Assembly (NCBI GenBank): GCA_025210555.1
Contig: JAOARL010000036.1
Span: 1 to 64,000 of the forward strand
DNA length: 64,000 bases
Source of the DNA: Clostridia bacterium
GTDB taxonomy: Bacteria; Bacillota; Clostridia; Lachnospirales; JAOARL01
Direction: 5' to 3'
Shown here: positions 16,349 through 58,034 of the stretch, one piece after another
Position numbering within the stretch: position 1 is the first letter of the stretch
Layout of the letters: every line of letters begins with the position of its first letter
Translations under genes and position numbers: made by a program
Notes under the pieces: generated by a model
What the model saw: only the letters and a program-made list of their open reading frames with translations
Database searches by the model: none
Told to the model about the DNA's origin: nothing

Positions 16349-16395
16349 AATTGCATTAATTTTAAAACAAATATATAATAAATTTGAAATATGTA

Positions 16396-16423
16396 TTGAC
16401 TTTTTTAGAAAAGTTGATATAAT
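16396..16423 (+). promoter_or_regulatory. promoter of orphan gene 16473, with shared upstream element
   Basis: TTGACT, 16 nt and TATAAT. Upstream, ATTTGAAAT and then ATGTA abut the -35 box. The same layout occurs before other orphan small genes (56115, 54088, 18375). Confidence 0.75.
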
Positions 16424-16472
16424 TAAAATACGTTTTTACAAAATTTTCAGAAAATTAAAAGGAGGAACTGAA

Positions 16473-16730
16473 ATGGAGAAAAAAAGGTTTAATGGAGTTG
16501 AGTTAGGGTTTACAAAACCATATGTATTTAATGGAAATAGTTTTGGACTTGTTGAAAAAAATGAAAATACAGTTCCAACGCAAGAAGAAATGCAAAAAAA
16601 GCAAGTTGAATTGGAGAATAAGCATATTAATGAAACGGCTTTAACTACTGGAAGAAGTCCAGAAGAAGTGAAAGAATTAAATGATATTGCAGAGGAAATT
16701 GCAGGATCATTATATATGAGTAGATACTAA
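16473..16730 (+). CDS. orphan small protein, 85 residues
   Basis: A monocistronic gene with a strong AAAGGAGGAACTGAA ribosome site before ATG 16473, its own promoter and its own terminator. That setting supports a real gene despite no recognised family. The protein is hydrophilic, with a small aromatic/glycine-containing N-terminal half (KPYVFNGNSFGLVE) and a charged helical C-terminal half. There are no cysteines, signal peptide or membrane segment. Its promoter resembles those of other orphan genes here. Confidence 0.7.
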   Translation: MEKKRFNGVELGFTKPYVFNGNSFGLVEKNENTVPTQEEMQKKQVELENKHINETALTTGRSPEEVKELNDIAEEIAGSLYMSRY

Positions 16731-51065: not shown

Positions 51066-51093
51066 AAGGTTGTATTTTAAGTATATAGTGTAA

Positions 51094-51122
51094 TTGACAA
51101 AAAATATGATTGGGCATATAAT
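51094..51122 (+). promoter_or_regulatory. promoter of antisense RNA 1
   Basis: TTGACA, 17 nt and TATAAT: full consensus at both boxes. Confidence 0.88.
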
Positions 51123-51127
51123 ATAAA

Positions 51128-51204
51128 TAGGTATAGGCGACTTGTGTATGCCTACAAGCTAAAAGGGTTCATTAAAAAAAGATAGCGTACCGGCTATCTT
51201 TTTT
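51128..51204 (+). ncRNA. predicted antitoxin RNA 1 (about 75 nt)
   Basis: Starts about 7 nt after a consensus -10 box. It contains a 7-bp hairpin AGGTATA/TATGCCT identical to copy 2. The variable segment AAGCTAAAAGGGTTCATTA (51156-51174) can pair with the toxin 1 start region (51297-51315) over 19 nt with two G.U pairs, covering the ATG. It ends at the GATAGC/GCTATC terminator with six T. The likely role is to block toxin 1 translation. Confidence 0.7.
51178..51204. terminator. bidirectional terminator of TA locus 1
   Basis: GATAGC/GCTATC stem flanked by seven A on the left and six T on the right. It can therefore end the + strand RNA and the convergent - strand toxin mRNA. Confidence 0.85.
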
Positions 51205-51220
51205 GTTTGAAAATAGAAAA

Positions 51221-51313
51221 CTATTTTCTACTGAACTTATTACGAAAAAACTCCGTAAATAAGTTGCTTAATATTCCGCAAAGAATATTAAGTATAAAAC
51301 TAAAAGGATTCAT
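51221..51313 (-). CDS. predicted type I toxin peptide 1, 30 residues
   Basis: ATG on the - strand, preceded by AAAGGAGGTGTATA, one of the best ribosome sites in the window. The 30-residue product has a hydrophobic stretch (about 4-20, including FSFILNILCGIL) and a basic tail (EFFRNKFSRK). This matches small membrane-acting toxins of Fst/par-type loci in size and layout. The mRNA would end at the shared terminator 51178-51204. Upstream, CCCCCGAAAGGAGG could fold and partly hide the ribosome site. A paralog lies 320 bp away. Toxicity is inferred. Confidence 0.75.
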   Translation of the reverse strand: MNPFSFILNILCGILSNLFTEFFRNKFSRK

Positions 51314-51412
51314 TATACACCTCCTTTCGGGGGTAAATATAACGTTAGCAGTAAGTTATCATAATGTCGTGGGAGCTTATATGAACTGCTGTTTTGATAT
51401 AATATAGTGTAA

Positions 51413-51441
51413 TTGACAAATTGTAGACTGAAATATATAAT
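51413..51441 (+). promoter_or_regulatory. promoter of antisense RNA 2
   Basis: TTGACA, 17 nt and TATAAT. It lies in the region upstream of toxin 1 on the opposite strand. Confidence 0.88.
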
Positions 51442-51446
51442 GTAAA

Positions 51447-51525
51447 TAGGTATAGGCGACTTGTGTATGCCTAGAGAATCCAAAAGATCAAACAAAAAAG
51501 ATAGCGTGCTGGCTATCTTTTTTTG
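51447..51525 (+). ncRNA. predicted antitoxin RNA 2 (about 75-78 nt)
   Basis: Same design as RNA 1: the identical 5' hairpin module (51443-51473), a variable segment, then the GATAGC/GCTATC terminator with a long T run. The variable segment AGAGAATCCAAAA (51473-51485) is exactly complementary to codons 3-7 of toxin 2 (51614-51626) and does not match toxin 1. Confidence 0.7.
51497..51525. terminator. bidirectional terminator of TA locus 2
   Basis: GATAGC/GCTATC stem with six A to its left and eight T to its right. It can end transcripts from both strands. Confidence 0.85.
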
Positions 51526-51540
51526 TTTGAAAATAGAAAA

Positions 51541-51633
51541 CTATTTCCTACCGAACTTATTACGAAAAAACTCTGTAATTAAGTTGATTAATATTCCACA
51601 AAGAATATTAATGAGAGAATCCAAAATATTCAT
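51541..51633 (-). CDS. predicted type I toxin peptide 2, 30 residues
   Basis: Paralog of toxin 1 with the same AAAGGAGGTGTATA ribosome site. The hydrophobic core is DSLINILCGILINLIT, and the tail EFFRNKFGRK differs from copy 1 by one residue. Most divergence is in codons 3-7, exactly the part complementary to antisense RNA 2. A TATAAT on the - strand about 20 nt before the ribosome site may be its -10 box; no clear -35 was found. Function is inferred from architecture. Confidence 0.75.
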   Translation of the reverse strand: MNILDSLINILCGILINLITEFFRNKFGRK

Positions 51634-51739
51634 TATACACCTCCTTTCGGGGCAATTATAATGATAGGGATAAAAAATAGTGGTGTCTTTATAAATGTAA
51701 TTAAAAGTAAATATTGTTATATAAAATGTAGAAAGTAGT

Positions 51740-51784: not shown

Positions 51785-54010
51785 ATGGAAAACATAATTT
51801 CTTTTGAAGGGTCAGTAGATCATATAATATATCAAAATACAGAGAACAACTATGTTGTTTTTTCTTTAGATGTAGATTTTGAGGAGGTTATGTGTGTAGG
51901 TACTTTGATAGGACTTAAGCAGGGTGACTATGTTAAAGTACATGGTAACTGGAAAGAGCATAAACTATATGGTGAACAGCTAGAAGTGACATATTATGAG
52001 AAGATGACTCCAAATAATAAAGAAGCTATTTTAAAGTATTTAGCATCGGGAGTTATAAAAGGAGTAGGGGAAAAGACAGCGGCTAGAATTGTAGATGAAT
52101 TTGGACTTGAAACATTTAATGTTATAGAAAAAGAACATCATAAGTTGGCTAAGATAAAGGGAATTAGCAAAAGGAAAGCAGAAGAGATATATGAAAGTTT
52201 TGCTATTCAATATGAACAAAGAGAAATAATGATATATTTACAAAACTTTAATGTATCAGCAGCATATGCAATGAGAATATATAAAAAATACAAAGAAAAA
52301 ACCATAGAAAAGATAGAAAAAAATCCATATAAACTTATAGATGATATAAAGGGAATTGGATTTAAAATAGCAGATAGCATTGCTATGAAGATGGGAATAG
52401 AAGTGGATTCAGAATATAGAATAATAGCAGTAATAAAACATATATTAACAAGAGAGTTAAGCATAGGAAATGTTTATTTAACGCAAGATAACTTATATAA
52501 GTATTTAAAAGAGTTTGTTAAAGCGGATGAGGAATTATTTTCAAATATCATACTTGAAATGCAAATGGATAAACATATAGTTAGAGAAAGACTTGCGAGT
52601 GATGTTGTTATATATCTTTATGATTATTATAACTATGAGGTGTATACAGCAAGGAAGCTGGTTGATTTAAACCTAGAAAGTGAAGAACTTAAAAGAGTTG
52701 ATAGATATATATCAGAATTTGAAGCTCAAAACGAAATAATTTTAGCAGATATGCAAAAAGAAGCAGTAAAAAATGTGTTTAGAAGTGGAGTAAGTGTAAT
52801 AACTGGGGGACCAGGAACAGGTAAGACGACAATAATAAATTGCATAATACATATCCTTAAAGAGTTAGATGAAAAATATCTTTTAGCAGCACCGACAGGT
52901 AGAGCAGCTAAGAGAATGACAGAGCTAACAGGAGAAAGTGCATATACACTTCACCGAATGCTTGAAATTAATTACGTATCTGATAGTGAAAGCAACCAAT
53001 TTTTTAACAGGAATGAGGAAAATCCGCTAATAGAAAAGTATATAATAGTTGACGAAGTTTCGATGGTAGATATAAATATAATGTTTCATTTGCTTAAAGC
53101 AGTTCAGTATGGAGCTAAATTAATACTTGTAGGGGATGTTGACCAGCTGCCATCGGTAGGTCCGGGAAATGTACTTAAGGATATTATAGATAGTGAAGTA
53201 ATAAATGTAACTAAACTTAATGAGATATATAGACAGAAAGAGGAGAGTTCACTACCGTTTAATGCAAAACTTATAAATGAAGGAGAATATCCAGAGTTTA
53301 ACAAGAGTAAAGACTTTTTTATTGTAAGAAAGGGAAGAGCAGAGGATATAGCAAAAGAAGTAGTTAATCTTATAGTTAATAGATTGCCAACTTATGGGGA
53401 TTATGATCTTTTCGAAGATATACAAGTTCTTTGCCCAATGAAAAAGACACTAGCCGGTGTTAATGATCTTAATATATCACTAAGAGAGGCTCTTAATAGT
53501 AAAGAGGATGAAGAAAAATATGAAGTTACATTTAAAGGCATTACTTTAAGAGAAGGTGACAAGGTAATGCAAGTAAAGAATAACTATGATATTGAATGGA
53601 CTATTTCAAATGAATTAGGAAGAGTTCAAAATGGTAGTGGTGTATATAATGGTGATCAGGGAATTGTAAAAAGTATAAATAAGAGTAAACAGATTATAAA
53701 TGTTCTTTTTGATGATGAGAAAAGAGTGGAGTACGGTTTTGAGGATATAGATGAACTTACATTATCATATGCTATGACTATACATAAATCACAAGGTAGT
53801 GAATATAAGATAGTAATAATACCTGCTGTAAGTGGACCTAGAATGCTTATGAATAGAAATCTCCTTTATACTGCAGTGACTAGAGCTAAGGAATTAGTTG
53901 TAGTTGTAGGGAGAGAAGATACTATTAAAGGTATGATAGAAAATAATATGGAGTTCAAAAGAAATTCTACTTTGGACTTAAGAATTAAAGAGGCAGATAA
54001 TTTATATTAA
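51785..54010 (+). CDS. recD2: RecD2-type DNA helicase
   Basis: SF1B 5'-3' helicase of the RecD/TraA family, active in repair and independent of RecBC. Order: an N-terminal OB-like domain, helix-hairpin-helix motifs (ASGVIKGVGEKTAARIVDEF, then KIKGISKRKAEEI), Walker A TGGPGTGKTTIIN (about 340), Walker B IIVDEVSMVD, VGDVDQLPSVGPGN and the C-terminal motif TIHKSQGSEYKIVIIP with NLLYTAVTRAK. Length 741 residues is normal for RecD2. A TATAAT about 20 nt upstream abuts an 8-bp inverted repeat. AGAGGTGA ribosome site. Confidence 0.95.
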   Translation: MENIISFEGSVDHIIYQNTENNYVVFSLDVDFEEVMCVGTLIGLKQGDYVKVHGNWKEHKLYGEQLEVTYYEKMTPNNKEAILKYLASGVIKGVGEKTAARIVDEFGLETFNVIEKEHHKLAKIKGISKRKAEEIYESFAIQYEQREIMIYLQNFNVSAAYAMRIYKKYKEKTIEKIEKNPYKLIDDIKGIGFKIADSIAMKMGIEVDSEYRIIAVIKHILTRELSIGNVYLTQDNLYKYLKEFVKADEELFSNIILEMQMDKHIVRERLASDVVIYLYDYYNYEVYTARKLVDLNLESEELKRVDRYISEFEAQNEIILADMQKEAVKNVFRSGVSVITGGPGTGKTTIINCIIHILKELDEKYLLAAPTGRAAKRMTELTGESAYTLHRMLEINYVSDSESNQFFNRNEENPLIEKYIIVDEVSMVDINIMFHLLKAVQYGAKLILVGDVDQLPSVGPGNVLKDIIDSEVINVTKLNEIYRQKEESSLPFNAKLINEGEYPEFNKSKDFFIVRKGRAEDIAKEVVNLIVNRLPTYGDYDLFEDIQVLCPMKKTLAGVNDLNISLREALNSKEDEEKYEVTFKGITLREGDKVMQVKNNYDIEWTISNELGRVQNGSGVYNGDQGIVKSINKSKQIINVLFDDEKRVEYGFEDIDELTLSYAMTIHKSQGSEYKIVIIPAVSGPRMLMNRNLLYTAVTRAKELVVVVGREDTIKGMIENNMEFKRNSTLDLRIKEADNLY

Positions 54011-54012
54011 TT

Positions 54013-54038
54013 AAACCAGCTATTTAGCTGGTTTTTTT
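54013..54038 (+). terminator. terminator after recD2
   Basis: AAACCAGCT/AGCTGGTTT hairpin followed by T. Confidence 0.92.
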
Positions 54039-54087
54039 GAATGTAGATATAAATAAACAAAATAAATAAATTTTTCTGAAAATACCA

Positions 54088-54117
54088 TTGACAGACTATT
54101 TATATATTTCATATAAT
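54088..54117 (+). promoter_or_regulatory. promoter of the 54202 gene, with shared upstream element
   Basis: TTGACA, 18 nt and TATAAT. TTCTGAAAA lies exactly 5 nt before the -35 box, and TATAATTAAATCACG continues downstream. Both flanks match the promoter at 56115. Confidence 0.82.
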
Positions 54118-54201
54118 TAAATCACGTACGAAATTTGAAGAGGGCATATACTAGTTCTAAAACATCAGATCTTCATTCAATAAATTAATGGAGTGGTATA
54201 A

Positions 54202-55494
54202 ATGAATGTATCAGAATGTATAGTTGGAAACAAGCATGTTGAAGGCAAACTTCCAGAGTGTGGAACAGTTTGTTGTGGAAATCAAGAAGTTAAAAGTCAA
54301 ATTGCAAGAAATGTAAAAGGTGTTAACAAAAAAATAGGTAAAGAAAGTAGTAAAGTGCAAGGTGAGAGTAAGCTAGTAGAAGAACCTAAGAAAGTTAGAA
54401 ATACTCATTATGATCCAAATCATAATAGTTACGGTACTGACAAGACAGAGGCTAAAAAAGCATATGATAGAGCGGTAGTTGCAAATGATTATGCTAAAGC
54501 AGCTGATATAGAGAAGAAAAACAATATTACAGTAGAAAAAGCTGGAGTGAAAAAGGTTAAGTTTAGTGGAGATAGGGAAACTATAAGAACAGGATACATT
54601 GATTCAAAAGATCATCCTGATTATGATGAAATTGATTTTATGCATGCTGAAGCATTAAAACTTAATCAAACTAATGAAATTAAAGAAGAAAAAACAGAAG
54701 AAGAAGTTTATAATCAGTGGTTAGAAGAAGTTAATGAAACAGCTAAAGAAATAGAAGAAGAGCAAAAAAAGGAAGCAGAAAAAGCTGATGTTGAATATTT
54801 AAAAGATATGGAGAAATTTGTAACAGAAGATTATTATTATGAAAAATATCAAGATGATATAGAAGTAAATAGTAAAAAGAAAAAACATATCGATATGCTC
54901 TCTAAAAAAAGAAGTATAAGAAGAGCTTTAAGCTTAGAATCAGATCAAGGCGATGAAAAAGCAAAGAAACTAATGGAAAAATATGGGATAAAAGAAGAAC
55001 AAATAGTATTAGGTAAACTAATTTCTAAAGGGGTAGTTAGAAGGGTTTTTGAATCTTTAAAAGCTGGAGACTTTGAAACTGTTAGTAGAATAATGAACAA
55101 ATATAAAAATCCAGAATTTATAAAAACTAATACTAGAGCAACTATTAGAAAAGAAGAAGAAAATGTATTTGGAAATTTTCCATATGAAGGAATTCTTGAT
55201 ATAGAAGCAAGTGAAAAAGTTATTAGTAATGAATATGAACTTGCTAAAAGAATGGACTTAGATAAAACTAATGCTGCAAAAGAAGCGGAAAATAAAAAGA
55301 ATGAAATTATATCAGAAGAAGAATTAGCATTTGAAAAAAATATAGCAGCATATAATGAAGAATATGATAAAAAATTAGTAGCTAAATATAAAAATGATCC
55401 AGATAATCAAAGAGATCCAATGGAAGCAATTACAAGACCAATATACATTAAAGGTATGAGTATAGATGAAATAAACGAAGAGTTCTGTAGTTAA
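54202..55494 (+). CDS. highly charged orphan protein, 430 residues
   Basis: No family is recognised. The N-terminus has a cysteine-containing stretch (ECIVGNKHVEGKLPECGTVC), and the rest is very rich in Lys/Glu and probably coiled (EETAKEIEEEQKKEAEKADV and similar). There is no signal peptide or membrane segment. Short motifs such as HYDPNHNSYGTDK and IYIKGMSIDEINEEFCS stand out. It has its own promoter with a 78-nt leader, a GGAGTGG site and a large palindromic hairpin downstream. It opens a cluster of orphan small genes that ends with an amidoligase-family gene. Confidence 0.72.
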   Translation: MNVSECIVGNKHVEGKLPECGTVCCGNQEVKSQIARNVKGVNKKIGKESSKVQGESKLVEEPKKVRNTHYDPNHNSYGTDKTEAKKAYDRAVVANDYAKAADIEKKNNITVEKAGVKKVKFSGDRETIRTGYIDSKDHPDYDEIDFMHAEALKLNQTNEIKEEKTEEEVYNQWLEEVNETAKEIEEEQKKEAEKADVEYLKDMEKFVTEDYYYEKYQDDIEVNSKKKKHIDMLSKKRSIRRALSLESDQGDEKAKKLMEKYGIKEEQIVLGKLISKGVVRRVFESLKAGDFETVSRIMNKYKNPEFIKTNTRATIRKEEENVFGNFPYEGILDIEASEKVISNEYELAKRMDLDKTNAAKEAENKKNEIISEEELAFEKNIAAYNEEYDKKLVAKYKNDPDNQRDPMEAITRPIYIKGMSIDEINEEFCS

Positions 55495-55511
55495 AAATTA
55501 ATAATAATAAA

Positions 55512-55551
55512 AGGTAATAAAATACACCTTATAAGGTGTATTTTATTACCT
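55512..55551. repeat. 40-bp perfect palindrome, probable terminator
   Basis: Two 20-nt arms, 55512-55531 and 55532-55551, are exact reverse complements with no spacer. The inner part ATACACCTTATAAGGTGTAT followed by TTTATT can act as a terminator for the 54202 gene. The full cruciform length is unusual here. Confidence 0.85.
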
Positions 55552-55574
55552 AAAAGTATACGAGGGTGATGATG

Positions 55575-55799
55575 ATGGCAAAAGGCAAGGAAAGAAATAC
55601 CAAAGTAATAACAGCAAAATATAAGCTTGATCAAGGAATAAAATTAAATAATAAGGATTTAATAAAATTAAAGTATTCTCATTTTGATTCGTTTGGGTAT
55701 GAGACGCCTGCTTTAACTGAGGCATTTAATAAAATTTCAAGTCAAAGAATACAAGAGCAGGAAGAAGTAGTAATAGAAAATGGTGAATTGGCTAGATAA
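55575..55799 (+). CDS. orphan small protein A, 74 residues
   Basis: ATG 55575 is the last of three consecutive ATG codons behind GAGGGTG; the earlier two or a GTG at 55566 are possible. The protein resembles its downstream neighbour. Here: KLDQGIKLNNKDLIKLKY, then FGYETPALTEAFNKISSQRI. There: KVIKGEVLTNRDIEVLEKI, then YETEKMTNLFDVVVKQRI. It is soluble, with no known domain. Confidence 0.65.
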   Translation: MAKGKERNTKVITAKYKLDQGIKLNNKDLIKLKYSHFDSFGYETPALTEAFNKISSQRIQEQEEVVIENGELAR

Positions 55800-55825
55800 T
55801 GAGGAGCTAGAAAGAAGGAGCTTTT

Positions 55826-56077
55826 ATGGATGCAGAAATAAAAATAGAATCAGCAGCTATGAGAAAGGTTATAAAAGGAGAAGTATTAACAAATAGAGAT
55901 ATTGAAGTTCTAGAAAAAATAGGTGTTAGTGGAATAACTTATGAAACAGAAAAAATGACAAATTTGTTTGATGTAGTAGTTAAACAAAGGATTGAAAAAG
56001 AAAAAAATATTACTAATATCAACATAAATAAGAGTTTTATAATGAATGAAGTTAATGTTTTAGGATTAGAAATTTAA
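55826..56077 (+). CDS. orphan small protein B, 83 residues, paralog of protein A
   Basis: ATG follows AAGAAGGAG by 5 nt. The shared pattern with protein A is G-x-x-L-x-N-x-D, then YET, LT/MT, F, and QRI-x-x-E, at the same spacing. The C-terminal tail (NININKSFIMNEVNVLGLEI) is distinct. No known domain, signal or membrane segment. It is separated by 26 nt from protein A and is probably co-transcribed with it. Confidence 0.65.
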   Translation: MDAEIKIESAAMRKVIKGEVLTNRDIEVLEKIGVSGITYETEKMTNLFDVVVKQRIEKEKNITNININKSFIMNEVNVLGLEI

Positions 56078-56114
56078 TTCATAAAATAAAGTTTGAAAAA
56101 TTCTGAAAAATGTA

Positions 56115-56143
56115 TTGACAAATTGAAAGAATTTTCATATAAT
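56115..56143 (+). promoter_or_regulatory. promoter of orphan gene 56184, with shared upstream element
   Basis: TTGACA, 17 nt and TATAAT. TTCTGAAAA (56101-56109) lies 5 nt before the -35 box and TTTAATCACG follows the -10. This is nearly identical in layout to the promoter at 54088. Confidence 0.85.
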
Positions 56144-56183
56144 TTAATCACGCTTTACAAAAAAATAACTGGAGGAATAAATA

Positions 56184-56396
56184 ATGAATGATATCAAAGT
56201 AGGAATGCAATCAGAAATAGATGTAATATTCAGTTTTACACATGTAGAAAAGAAAGAATATGAAAAAAGCGACATAAGAGCAGGGATGCAACCAGCTCAA
56301 GAACGTCGTTTTACGTTTGATGAGAATGAGGCATCTAAAAAATATGGATTTACGCCTTGCTGGAAAGTGGAAGAAGAAACTTCACTAGAAGCATAA
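56184..56396 (+). CDS. orphan small protein, 70 residues
   Basis: A monocistronic gene with a strong promoter, a TGGAGGAATAAATA ribosome site and a terminator. It is soluble and charged, with KVGMQSEIDVIFSFTHVEKK, a repeat-like RAGMQPAQERRFTFDENEA and a C-terminal YGFTPCWKVEEETSLEA containing one Cys. No family is recognised. It lies directly before the amidoligase-family gene and could be a partner or substrate (inference only). Confidence 0.7.
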   Translation: MNDIKVGMQSEIDVIFSFTHVEKKEYEKSDIRAGMQPAQERRFTFDENEASKKYGFTPCWKVEEETSLEA

Positions 56397-56421
56397 ATTG
56401 AAATATTTGAATAATAGATAA

Positions 56422-56449
56422 ATTGCACACGAAAGTGTGCGATTTTTTT
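56422..56449 (+). terminator. terminator after orphan gene 56184
   Basis: GCACAC-GAAA-GTGTGC hairpin with a GNRA-type loop, then T7. Amidoligase expression may depend on read-through. Confidence 0.93.
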
Positions 56450-56470
56450 AAAAAACTAGGGGTGGTTTTA

Positions 56471-57319
56471 ATGAATGGATTATTAACTACGACTGTTGGA
56501 TTTGAGCTAGAAGGTACTAATGTAACTAGAAAGAAAGTTGCAGAAGTTGTTAATAGTGTTATAAGAGGAACAATAAATGAGAAAATATCTAAAGAACAAG
56601 AGCCTGAGAGCGTTAAAATGGCACTAGATAACATGGGTGTTATTAGAGATGCTAATTACTATGAGTATAAAGAACATATGGATGTTGATGTTTATGATAT
56701 AGTAGGTGAAAAAACATGGAAGGTAGTAGAAGATTTTAGTATTTATCCAAGTTATGGAATGGATAGATGTTTTGAAGTCGTTACGCCTGTTATTAGTGAG
56801 GAAAAAGATTTAAGCAAACTTTGGAAAATAATGAGAAGATTAAACAAAGTTAAAGCCTTAACTAATGATTCTTGTGGAATGCATATGCATATAGGTATAG
56901 ATGACCCCAATCATGTTAAAAAATTTATAATGGGAATTTATGAAAATCAAGATTATTTAATTAAGAAGTTTACTAGAAATGAGAATAGATTAGAACGATT
57001 TGCAAAACCTTTTGAAGGTAAAGAAATAGATGAGTTAAAAAATAAAGATGTGAGATGTTTTGAAGATATATTAACCGTATTTACAACTAAAGAAGATATG
57101 TATGATTATTCAAACAAAGATACTAAACATAGAATATTAGGATTAAATTCATTAGTAGCAGGACATGTTGAATATAGAGCTTCTGACGGTACTGTGGAAG
57201 AAACAGTTGCAAAAAGTTTATTTGAAGATATAACATATATATATGAAGAAACAAAGAATAATAGTAATTCAACAATTGTATTCCCTACGTATGAAGAGGT
57301 TGTAGTTTATGGAAAATGA
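56471..57319 (+). CDS. amidoligase-family protein
   Basis: This 282-residue protein matches the glutamine-synthetase-fold amidoligase family. It begins TVGFELEGT (about 8-16), then has a CFEVVTPVI strand (about 100-108), the metal/ATP-site stretch NDSCGMHMHIG (about 133-143) and the C-terminal HVEYRASDGT (about 232-241). The usual E, H and R ligands are present. Family members form amide bonds on peptides, proteins or wall components; this substrate is unknown. ATG 56471 follows AGGGGTGG. An upstream TTG lies inside the terminator and is rejected. Confidence 0.82.
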   Translation: MNGLLTTTVGFELEGTNVTRKKVAEVVNSVIRGTINEKISKEQEPESVKMALDNMGVIRDANYYEYKEHMDVDVYDIVGEKTWKVVEDFSIYPSYGMDRCFEVVTPVISEEKDLSKLWKIMRRLNKVKALTNDSCGMHMHIGIDDPNHVKKFIMGIYENQDYLIKKFTRNENRLERFAKPFEGKEIDELKNKDVRCFEDILTVFTTKEDMYDYSNKDTKHRILGLNSLVAGHVEYRASDGTVEETVAKSLFEDITYIYEETKNNSNSTIVFPTYEEVVVYGK

Positions 57320-57349
57320 GAACTTATATAATATATGAGTTCTTTTTTT
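57319..57349 (+). terminator. terminator after the amidoligase gene
   Basis: AGAACTTATAT/ATATGAGTTCT-type stem followed by seven T. Confidence 0.82.
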
Positions 57350-57413
57350 ATTGCAACTAAACAGTTCGTATAATATGTATTTACTTTAAGTTATTAAGTA
57401 GTAACTTAATAAT

Positions 57414-58034
57414 ATGATATTAGAATTTATATTTGGAAGATACTGCATATTTTGCCAAGCTATAATAAGTGATGGACATATGTGTAGTAAGTGTAAAAAA
57501 GATTTACCGTATACAGATAGGGAAGTTATAAAAATAAAAGAGGATGATAATTATTTGAGTGTTAAAAGTGTATTCTATTACGAAGATTATATAATGGACT
57601 CTATATATAGGTTTAAGTATAAAAATAGAAAACACTATGCTAAATATTACGCAAGATATATGAAAAGTATTATTGATAATAGATTTGACGTAATAACTTA
57701 TGTACCTATAAGTAAAAAGAGACTTAAGGAAAGGGGATATAATCAAGCAGAAGTTTTAGCGAAAGAGCTGGGTAAACTTATTAATATAGAAGTAAAAGAA
57801 TTAATATATAGGCATAAAGACACTCAAAAGTTAAGGAACAAAGGGGTTGAAGCTAGAAAAAATATAATTGAAGGAGTTTTTAGAAAAAAATGTATGGTAA
57901 AGGGTAAAAAAATTTTATTAATAGACGATATATATACTACCGGAACTACATTAAATGAGTGTAGTAAAGTGTTAAATGGTAATAATGTGCATTGCTTAAC
58001 ATTAGCTTGTGGAAAAAATACTAAAAAAAGTTAA
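57414..58034 (+). CDS. comF: ComF-family phosphoribosyltransferase-like protein
   Basis: The 206 residues have an N-terminal zinc-ribbon (CIFCQAII, CSKCKKDLPY) and a C-terminal PRTase fold with YVPISKKRLKERGYNQAEVLA and the PRPP loop ILLIDDIYTTGTTLNEC. ComFC proteins support DNA uptake or fork restart in competent bacteria. In Firmicutes comF is commonly next to flgM-flgN-flgK, as here. No good ribosome site precedes the ATG, so the start is less certain. Confidence 0.92.
   Translation: MILEFIFGRYCIFCQAIISDGHMCSKCKKDLPYTDREVIKIKEDDNYLSVKSVFYYEDYIMDSIYRFKYKNRKHYAKYYARYMKSIIDNRFDVITYVPISKKRLKERGYNQAEVLAKELGKLINIEVKELIYRHKDTQKLRNKGVEARKNIIEGVFRKKCMVKGKKILLIDDIYTTGTTLNECSKVLNGNNVHCLTLACGKNTKKS

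Follow-up and report, generated by a model that had tools for sequence, protein, structure and literature searches.

What does an amidoligase act on when it is encoded on a chromosome among orphan genes, and do the products of these neighbors take part in its reaction? This question is raised by five + strand genes situated between recD2 and comFC in a 64-kb window (i.e., the whole stretch of DNA that was analyzed). As described in the initial annotation, these genes encode a charged protein of 430 amino acids, three small proteins, and an amidoligase-family enzyme, all in one orientation: the orphan protein P430 (54202–55494; 430 aa), the orphan SP1 (55575–55799; 74 aa), its weak paralog SP2 (55826–56077; 83 aa), the orphan SP3 (56184–56396; 70 aa), and the Amidoligase_2 enzyme (56471–57319; 282 aa). 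Tentatively, we favor the explanation that this is a chromosomal, co-regulated locus of two transcripts around a cyclotransferase-free amide ligase with a glutamine synthetase (GS) fold, the substrate of which may be a co-encoded protein.

The cluster occupies the recD2–comFC gap

Codon usage was both coding-like and host-like in all five genes (z of 3.2 to 10.9), in contrast to two long ORFs between metK and recD2 (z of –0.4 and –0.6), and their GC3 was host-like as well. Shine-Dalgarno-like sites were read upstream of the cluster genes, and SP1 has further in-frame ATG codons at 55569 and 55572. The flanks consist of recD2 and comFC (identified by profile) and of metK and flagellar genes (identified by reading), i.e., not of phage or integrative-element surroundings. 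Among fetched relatives, comFC followed recD2 in 22 of 29 (within the 1.5-kb flank fetched), with a gap of at most 165 bp, judged by alignment ends, in 20 of those 22, vs. a 3.4-kb gap here that is filled by the cluster. This suggests that the cluster sits in a normally fixed chromosomal spot, although the argument is not absolute, since comFC was not beside recD2 in the fetched flank of 7 of the 29 relatives.

Searches of the cluster genes against Pfam, PHROGs, and NCBIfam recognized no phage, integrase, or transfer gene, and the DNA from 53900 to 57500 had no match in phages or plasmids. In agreement with the earlier remark that known RiPP and transporter genes are missing, the same three resources revealed no dedicated transporter, peptidase, or known RiPP enzyme among the cluster proteins, and a search of these proteins yielded no biosynthetic partner gene.

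Two matched promoters precede two putative transcription units

Two promoters of one type had been noted at this locus, and both were recovered as predicted sigmaA promoters on the + strand. Promoter 1 (54074–54126), which precedes P430, comprises TTCTGAAAA, TTGACA at 54088, an 18-nt spacer, TATAAT at 54112, and AATCACG, while promoter 2 (56101–56152), which precedes SP3, comprises TTCTGAAAA, TTGACA at 56115, a 17-nt spacer, TATAAT at 56138, and AATCACG. Besides the upstream TTCTGAAAA, both have CATATAATTNAATCACG around the –10 region in common, and they were the only ones among the 15 sites found to match the hexamers at 12/12 positions. The exact promoter core (i.e., ATATAATTNAATCACG) occurs at only two places in the 1.56-Mb genome, which are promoters 1 and 2, located 2 kb apart; with up to two mismatches, the core pattern is at background level (11 occurrences vs. 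18 in the control). A similar promoter is situated at 16386–16436 of the window, before a gene for an 85-aa orphan protein.

The cluster is bordered by predicted intrinsic terminators, one after recD2 (+ strand, 54013–54038) and one after the amidoligase gene (+ strand, 57318–57349; absent from a separate terminator scan). Between P430 and SP1, a 40-nt perfect palindrome (+ strand, 55512–55551) is predicted to form an RNA hairpin of –24.3 kcal/mol (z of –6.5). Moreover, the gap between SP3 and the amidoligase gene contains a terminator-like hairpin with an 11-bp stem and a T-run (+ strand, 56420–56449), a possible attenuator that the separate scan lists on the – strand only; folding of the 56400–56470 region gave a z of –6.3. 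The palindrome and both border terminators are additions to the initial annotation. Read from the sequence, promoter 1 would drive P430 and reach SP1 and SP2 only past the strong hairpin, while promoter 2, as a near-copy, would drive SP3 and reach the enzyme gene past the terminator-like hairpin, with terminators bordering both sides.

Such matched promoters would raise both units together, possibly on nutrient shortage via CodY. The genome encodes CodY (4e-41) and contains 26 CodY boxes with at most one mismatch vs. 3 in the control. CodY-box-like sites were identified at promoter 1 (ATTTTTCTGAAAATA at 54070; two mismatches) and at promoter 2 (56097, with three mismatches, and 56130, with two). 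Nevertheless, putative CodY control of both promoters is weakly supported, since these boxes carry two or three mismatches, for which the chance level is ca. 2 (≤2 mismatches) or 18 (≤3 mismatches) sites per 64 kb, and since CodY-like sites showed no excess across the 64-kb window.

A divergent amidoligase with a predicted GS fold

The assignment of the enzyme to the amidoligase family was borne out by its match to Amidoligase_2 (PF12224; 3.2e-29, 103 bits vs. a cut-off of 22), and it is the only PF12224 gene in the genome. Its start was placed at the ATG at 56471, with a Shine-Dalgarno sequence (AGGGGTGG) at 56458; a TTG codon at 56423 lies inside the terminator-like hairpin. The family-invariant residues are kept (G11, E13, E15, D89, S91, I92, E103, V105, G137, H139, H141, R174, E235, and R237, in an alignment numbering that begins one codon early); the list of invariant columns includes this enzyme by construction, and the charged residues and histidines that never vary among the relatives are conserved in it as well. 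When set beside the GS superfamily, the motifs E-x-E, G-x-H-x-H, and E-x-R resemble what we take to be the GS metal and nucleotide ligands.

The best structural neighbors of the AlphaFold model (pLDDT 82, pTM 0.79) were glutamine synthetases (Z up to 13.5; 175 residues, rmsd 3.0), and the GCS-like YbdK group was also retrieved (Z of 11.8, with 206 residues and rmsd 3.9, and 11.6). The fold thus appears common to the enzyme and the GS/glutamate-cysteine ligase superfamily, at 9–16% identity in the structural alignments. Judged from motifs and model, the enzyme is apparently a catalytically intact amide ligase of the predicted GS fold, which would use ATP to activate a carboxylate and subsequently join it to an amine.

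With the phage and mobile-element members of the Amidoligase_2 family (PF12224; PHROG 2443), the enzyme has the domain, the invariant residues, and the predicted GS/GCS-like fold in common. In contrast to them, it is chromosomal, measures 282 aa without the C-terminal tail of the mobile-element cassette members, and is only ca. 28–32% identical to its closest relatives. In a tree of 79 rows (thinned from 199), its very long branch lies outside the cyclotransferase-linked set and joins that of a 564-aa enzyme (L008), with both branches measuring ca. 9–10 changes per column. Because such long-branch joins may be false, only the position outside the cyclotransferase-linked set and the strong divergence were taken from the tree. 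The L008 gene itself has a chromosomal setting, and inspection by eye of the ORFs on its 16-kb contig revealed no cyclotransferase.

The cyclotransferase that accompanies relatives is missing

A gamma-glutamyl cyclotransferase was found within 3 kb of the amidoligase in 184 of 201 relatives' loci, a set that includes near-copies and was partly chosen by the G-[IV]-E-[IV]-E pattern, and in 35 of the 37 loci that stem from the profile search only. The 'UP' profile was left out of the latter analysis because it also matches the amidoligase itself. Among the 17 of 201 loci that lack a cyclotransferase, L070, L108, L222, L229, L234, and L267 end within 150 bases past the enzyme, and L136, although counted as cyclotransferase-free, has one ca. 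2.3 kb off in a longer stretch (L269). In the genome studied here, PF06094 (gamma-glutamyl cyclotransferase) is absent altogether, vs. present in 9 of 14 control genomes, and profile searches of the cluster proteins detected neither a cyclotransferase nor DUF4314, DUF5049, or a second amidoligase-like gene. Since the locus lacks the cyclotransferase family that accompanies the relatives, trimming the product back in this way is improbable.

Many relatives reside in phage or mobile cassettes together with a second amidoligase-like gene, DUF4314, GGCT, and DUF5049 (65 phage records matched, and 80 viral loci out of 431 were kept). Amidoligase–cyclotransferase cassettes are described for TPDSL_ph1, for prophages of Clostridium clostridioforme LM41, and for C. 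difficile Tn6164 (Orf22–Orf23). The amidoligase is the central enzyme in these clostridial prophage and integrative-element cassettes as well as here, but the present locus holds four orphans instead of the cyclotransferase, DUF4314, DUF5049, and the second amidoligase-like gene.

In view of these many cassettes, the locus might stem from a phage or an integrative element, as a cargo gene that was domesticated or has decayed; its amidoligase would then act on a peptide of the cell envelope, with the orphans as envelope partners or further cargo. This would also agree with the published proposal that phage amidoligases serve cell-envelope peptide modification and superinfection exclusion; PMC11318856 and PMC11253131 restate what Iyer et al. 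(2009) proposed on the cell wall for phiEco32. However, the cluster genes include no recognized phage, integrase, or transfer gene and are host-like in codon usage and GC3, their DNA is unmatched in phages and plasmids, GGCT, DUF4314, and DUF5049 are unmatched among their proteins, and the tree sets the enzyme, on its very long branch, apart from the cyclotransferase-linked set, so that we consider a cargo origin rather unlikely.

Candidate substrates among the orphan proteins

No convincing relative of P430, SP1, SP2, or SP3 was found across the searches run, an orphan status that is partly a sampling effect, as the compared genomes include none of the host's genus or family. For P430, this covers phages, plasmids, viral contigs, and PDB sequences, 95 other genomes of the order, and 390 other genomes of the class sample (with at most four candidates scored per genome among the matches listed), as well as an insensitive pattern-based search of genome contigs. 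A phage, plasmid, or defense identity of P430 was rejected for want of a match: among the cluster proteins, PADLOC models returned P430 alone, at an E-value of 0.15 that does not amount to a defense call, and its PHROG (0.012) and Pfam (0.12) matches were read as composition effects. Its single-sequence model shows long predicted helices at low confidence (pLDDT 51). The small proteins were compared with the amidoligase loci of relatives and, in the case of SP2, with its own whole genome; for SP3, viral contigs contained no relatives.

The previously noted relatedness of SP1 and SP2 holds, though weakly (29% identity over 52 aa). Each matches only the other among the window ORFs (E of 1e-4 to 2e-4), and in the whole genome SP1 is the best non-self match of SP2 (E of 0.02), followed by an unrelated place (E of 0.05). 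An identification of SP2 as HypB (NCBIfam E of 0.0035; 17 bits vs. a cut-off of 121) was rejected, as was a likeness of SP1 to a phage ParB/methyltransferase (E of 0.006), for which the SP1+SP2 profile gave an E of 0.14.

Within the favored two-transcript reading, the carboxylate or the amine would most likely be provided by a protein encoded in the same locus, with SP3 as the first substrate candidate because it has its transcript in common with the enzyme. Pupylation (PafA/Pup) would be a parallel for a GS-fold ligase that works together with a small protein, but PafA belongs to a different GS-fold family and SP1–3, by reading, have no Pup-like C-terminus; nor do the three have a C-terminal motif in common (...ELAR, ...GLEI, ...SLEA). 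Moreover, the initial suggestion of a substrate or partner role for the small proteins did not extend to relatives: within the loci searchable, amidoligase homologs (the closest ca. 28–32% identical) occurred without convincing P430, SP1, SP2, or SP3 relatives in all of 120 and all of 201 loci, most of them with no more than 1.5 to 6 kb of flanking sequence. This is the observation that the initial annotation itself had named as refuting. Because of these occurrences, the role of SP1–3 or P430 as putative substrates is unsupported outside this genome, with the reservation that no relative exceeds 32% identity and that the host belongs to an isolated lineage. No experimentally identified Amidoligase_2 substrate was found in the excerpts of the literature searched, where papers repeat the 2009 prediction.

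At its most far-reaching, the locus could represent a new type of protein modification, in which, with the usual eraser missing, a cyclotransferase-free GS-fold ligase would attach an amino acid or a peptide to SP3 and SP1/SP2, with P430 as scaffold or target and the matched promoters responding to nutrient shortage; this version we regard as highly doubtful. A compact chromosomal amidoligase that lacks the cyclotransferase and has only a few co-regulated genes would offer a simple setting for finding an Amidoligase_2 substrate, with three small candidate proteins that are directly testable. Should the orphans not be substrates, the finding is reduced to one further amidoligase of divergent sequence, from a lineage that is isolated.

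Glutamine synthetase, YbdK-type, and plant glutamate-cysteine ligases, with which the enzyme has its fold in common, act on free metabolites. The enzyme might likewise use free metabolites to form an amide or a gamma-glutamyl compound while the orphans do other jobs, which would suit a cluster without a RiPP-like transporter or peptidase. Such a role is nonetheless unlikely, given that the cluster has no biosynthetic partner gene and that the matched promoter ties the enzyme transcript to proteins of an unknown kind. Finally, it is quite improbable that an isolated lineage gathered orphan genes and copied one promoter, leaving the enzyme and the small proteins without a common function: while the look-alike promoter of the 85-aa orphan gene and the partly sampling-dependent orphan status would fit such chance neighbors, all genes lie on one strand, terminators border the set, and the exact promoter core recurs 2 kb apart and nowhere else in the genome.

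An amidoligase cluster between recD2 and comFC

The window encodes a divergent amidoligase that retains the family-invariant residues. Its gene lies in a bordered stretch of the chromosome that has two matched promoters and lacks the usual cyclotransferase. Here, recD2 (51785–54010) and comFC (57414–58034) enclose five plus-strand genes, i.e., those of a charged 430-aa orphan protein (P430), three small proteins of 74, 83 and 70 aa (SP1, SP2 and SP3) and a 282-aa Amidoligase_2 protein (PF12224; 56471–57319). All five are coding by codon usage (z of 10.9, 3.3, 4.3, 3.2 and 7.6, respectively, with 17 other genes of the window as reference), have a GC3 of 0.12–0.23 (vs. 0.16 in the reference genes) and, as read from the sequence, are each preceded by a suitably spaced purine-rich site. 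Because an upstream TTG sits in a terminator-like hairpin, the amidoligase start was placed at ATG 56471.

Among 29 relatives in which the recD2 locus was examined, comFC was found within the 1.5-kb flank of recD2 in 22, and in 20 of these the distance was at most 165 bases by alignment ends. Since both genes are thus usually adjacent but separated by 3.4 kb in the window, the cluster looks like an insertion into a conserved neighbourhood. Its DNA yielded no match to phages and plasmids.

Promoters and transcript layout

The cluster is bordered by terminators at 54013–54038 and 57318–57349. As the promoter scan yielded fewer sites than its shuffles (15 vs. 22.7), perfect sites alone were used, and just two 12/12 matches were located within 53900–57500, both on the plus strand: one preceding P430 (54088–54117) and one preceding SP3 (56115–56143). 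They share TTCTGAAAA, ATTGACA and TTTCATATAATTNAATCACG, and the 16-mer ATATAATTNAATCACG has exact copies only at these two promoters in the 1.56-Mb genome. P430 and SP1 are separated by a perfect palindrome (55512–55551), SP3 and the amidoligase by a hairpin with T-run (56420–56449), so that transcription has to pass a hairpin to reach SP1–SP2, and likewise the amidoligase, unless these have weaker promoters of their own.

The genome encodes CodY, and consensus boxes with at most one mismatch number 26 genome-wide (vs. 3 in a reversed control). CodY-like boxes at the P430 and SP3 promoters have two and three mismatches, respectively, and a second box with two mismatches overlies the SP3 promoter. 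However, sites with at most two (4 vs. ca. 2 expected) or three (13 vs. ca. 18 expected) mismatches show no overall excess in the 64-kb window, so that possible CodY control of the cluster is a lead rather than a result. CodY screening in C. difficile, as described in PMC12772354, has allowed up to four mismatches.

A third promoter like the cluster pair (16386–16436), accompanied by a mismatch-free CodY consensus box at 16442, precedes an orphan 85-aa gene (16473–16730; whole feature 16386–16730), followed by an ORF of ca. 80 aa. Small proteins of no obvious kind lie behind several of 15 genomic CodY-box loci examined.

The amidoligase and its relatives

The enzyme scored 103 bits against Amidoligase_2 (cut-off 22) and keeps the columns invariant among its relatives. 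Its AlphaFold model (28 input sequences; mean pLDDT 82, pTM 0.79) had the GCS-like YbdK group and glutamine synthetases as top PDB matches in Foldseek, and VIA-align gave Z up to 13.5 for glutamine synthetases (175 residues, rmsd 3.0) and 11.8 and 11.6 for YbdK-type chains. From this superfamily membership, ATP-driven carboxylate-amine joining follows as the predicted chemistry.

Counting the window genome, profile searches matched 8 of 96 genomes of the order and 36 of 391 of the class, with at most 32% identity to the window enzyme in all other matches; 65 phage records and one plasmid also matched. Relatives commonly occupy a cassette of a second amidoligase-like gene, DUF4314, amidoligase, gamma-glutamyl cyclotransferase and DUF5049. 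The cyclotransferase lies within 3 kb of the amidoligase in 184 of 201 relatives' loci, and is present in 35/37 loci drawn from profile searches. In contrast, the window cluster lacks it, and a search with PF06094 as the one cyclotransferase family covered found none in the window genome while positive in 9 of 14 control genomes. Moreover, the window enzyme lacks the C-terminal tail of cassette members, and its very long branch in the tree does not fall among theirs.

In mobile cassettes, a second protein was seen upstream at the relatives' loci L002 (211–915), L009 (2332–3054) and L027 (7115–7879); that of L002 matched the PHROG 2443 amidoligase profile (E 3.6e-64) and no Pfam family, with DUF4314 and DUF5049 genes adjoining. 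Another non-cassette member, the amidoligase at L268 (8505–10199), has 564 aa and a long extension at its N-terminus; its surroundings are chromosomal, with no cyclotransferase visible.

Orphan proteins and possible function

P430 and SP1–SP3 had no credible match in Pfam, PHROGs, NCBIfam or PADLOC, although this orphan status weighs less as evidence since the genomes compared all belong to other genera and families. The likeness of SP1 and SP2 is weak (29% over 52 aligned residues) but singles out a neighbouring gene, SP1 being the best non-self match of SP2 in its own genome (E 0.02; unrelated places from E 0.05). SP3 is related to neither. Loose internal DNA repeats mark the C-terminal half of P430 (54990–55337; spacing ca. 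160 nt, i.e., ca. 53 residues).

The two cluster transcripts may act together, and the amidoligase might modify a protein of its own locus, with SP3 as first candidate. Against such own-locus modification count that the same neighbours were seen at no relative's locus and that the small proteins have no shared end motif. A phage cell-wall proposal for the family reportedly originates from Iyer et al. 2009. It is repeated in PMC11318856, PMC11253131 and PMC10580990.

Noncoding units upstream of recD2

Between metK and recD2, two ORFs had non-coding-like codon scores (z of –0.4 and –0.6). The same interval holds two tandem noncoding units (51093–51660), 81–89% identical and ca. 320 bp apart, which had no match in Rfam. 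Each carries TTGACA/TATAAT-like boxes and two hairpins, one short and one terminator-like (AGATAGC...GCTATCTTTTTT), making them candidate tandem small RNAs.
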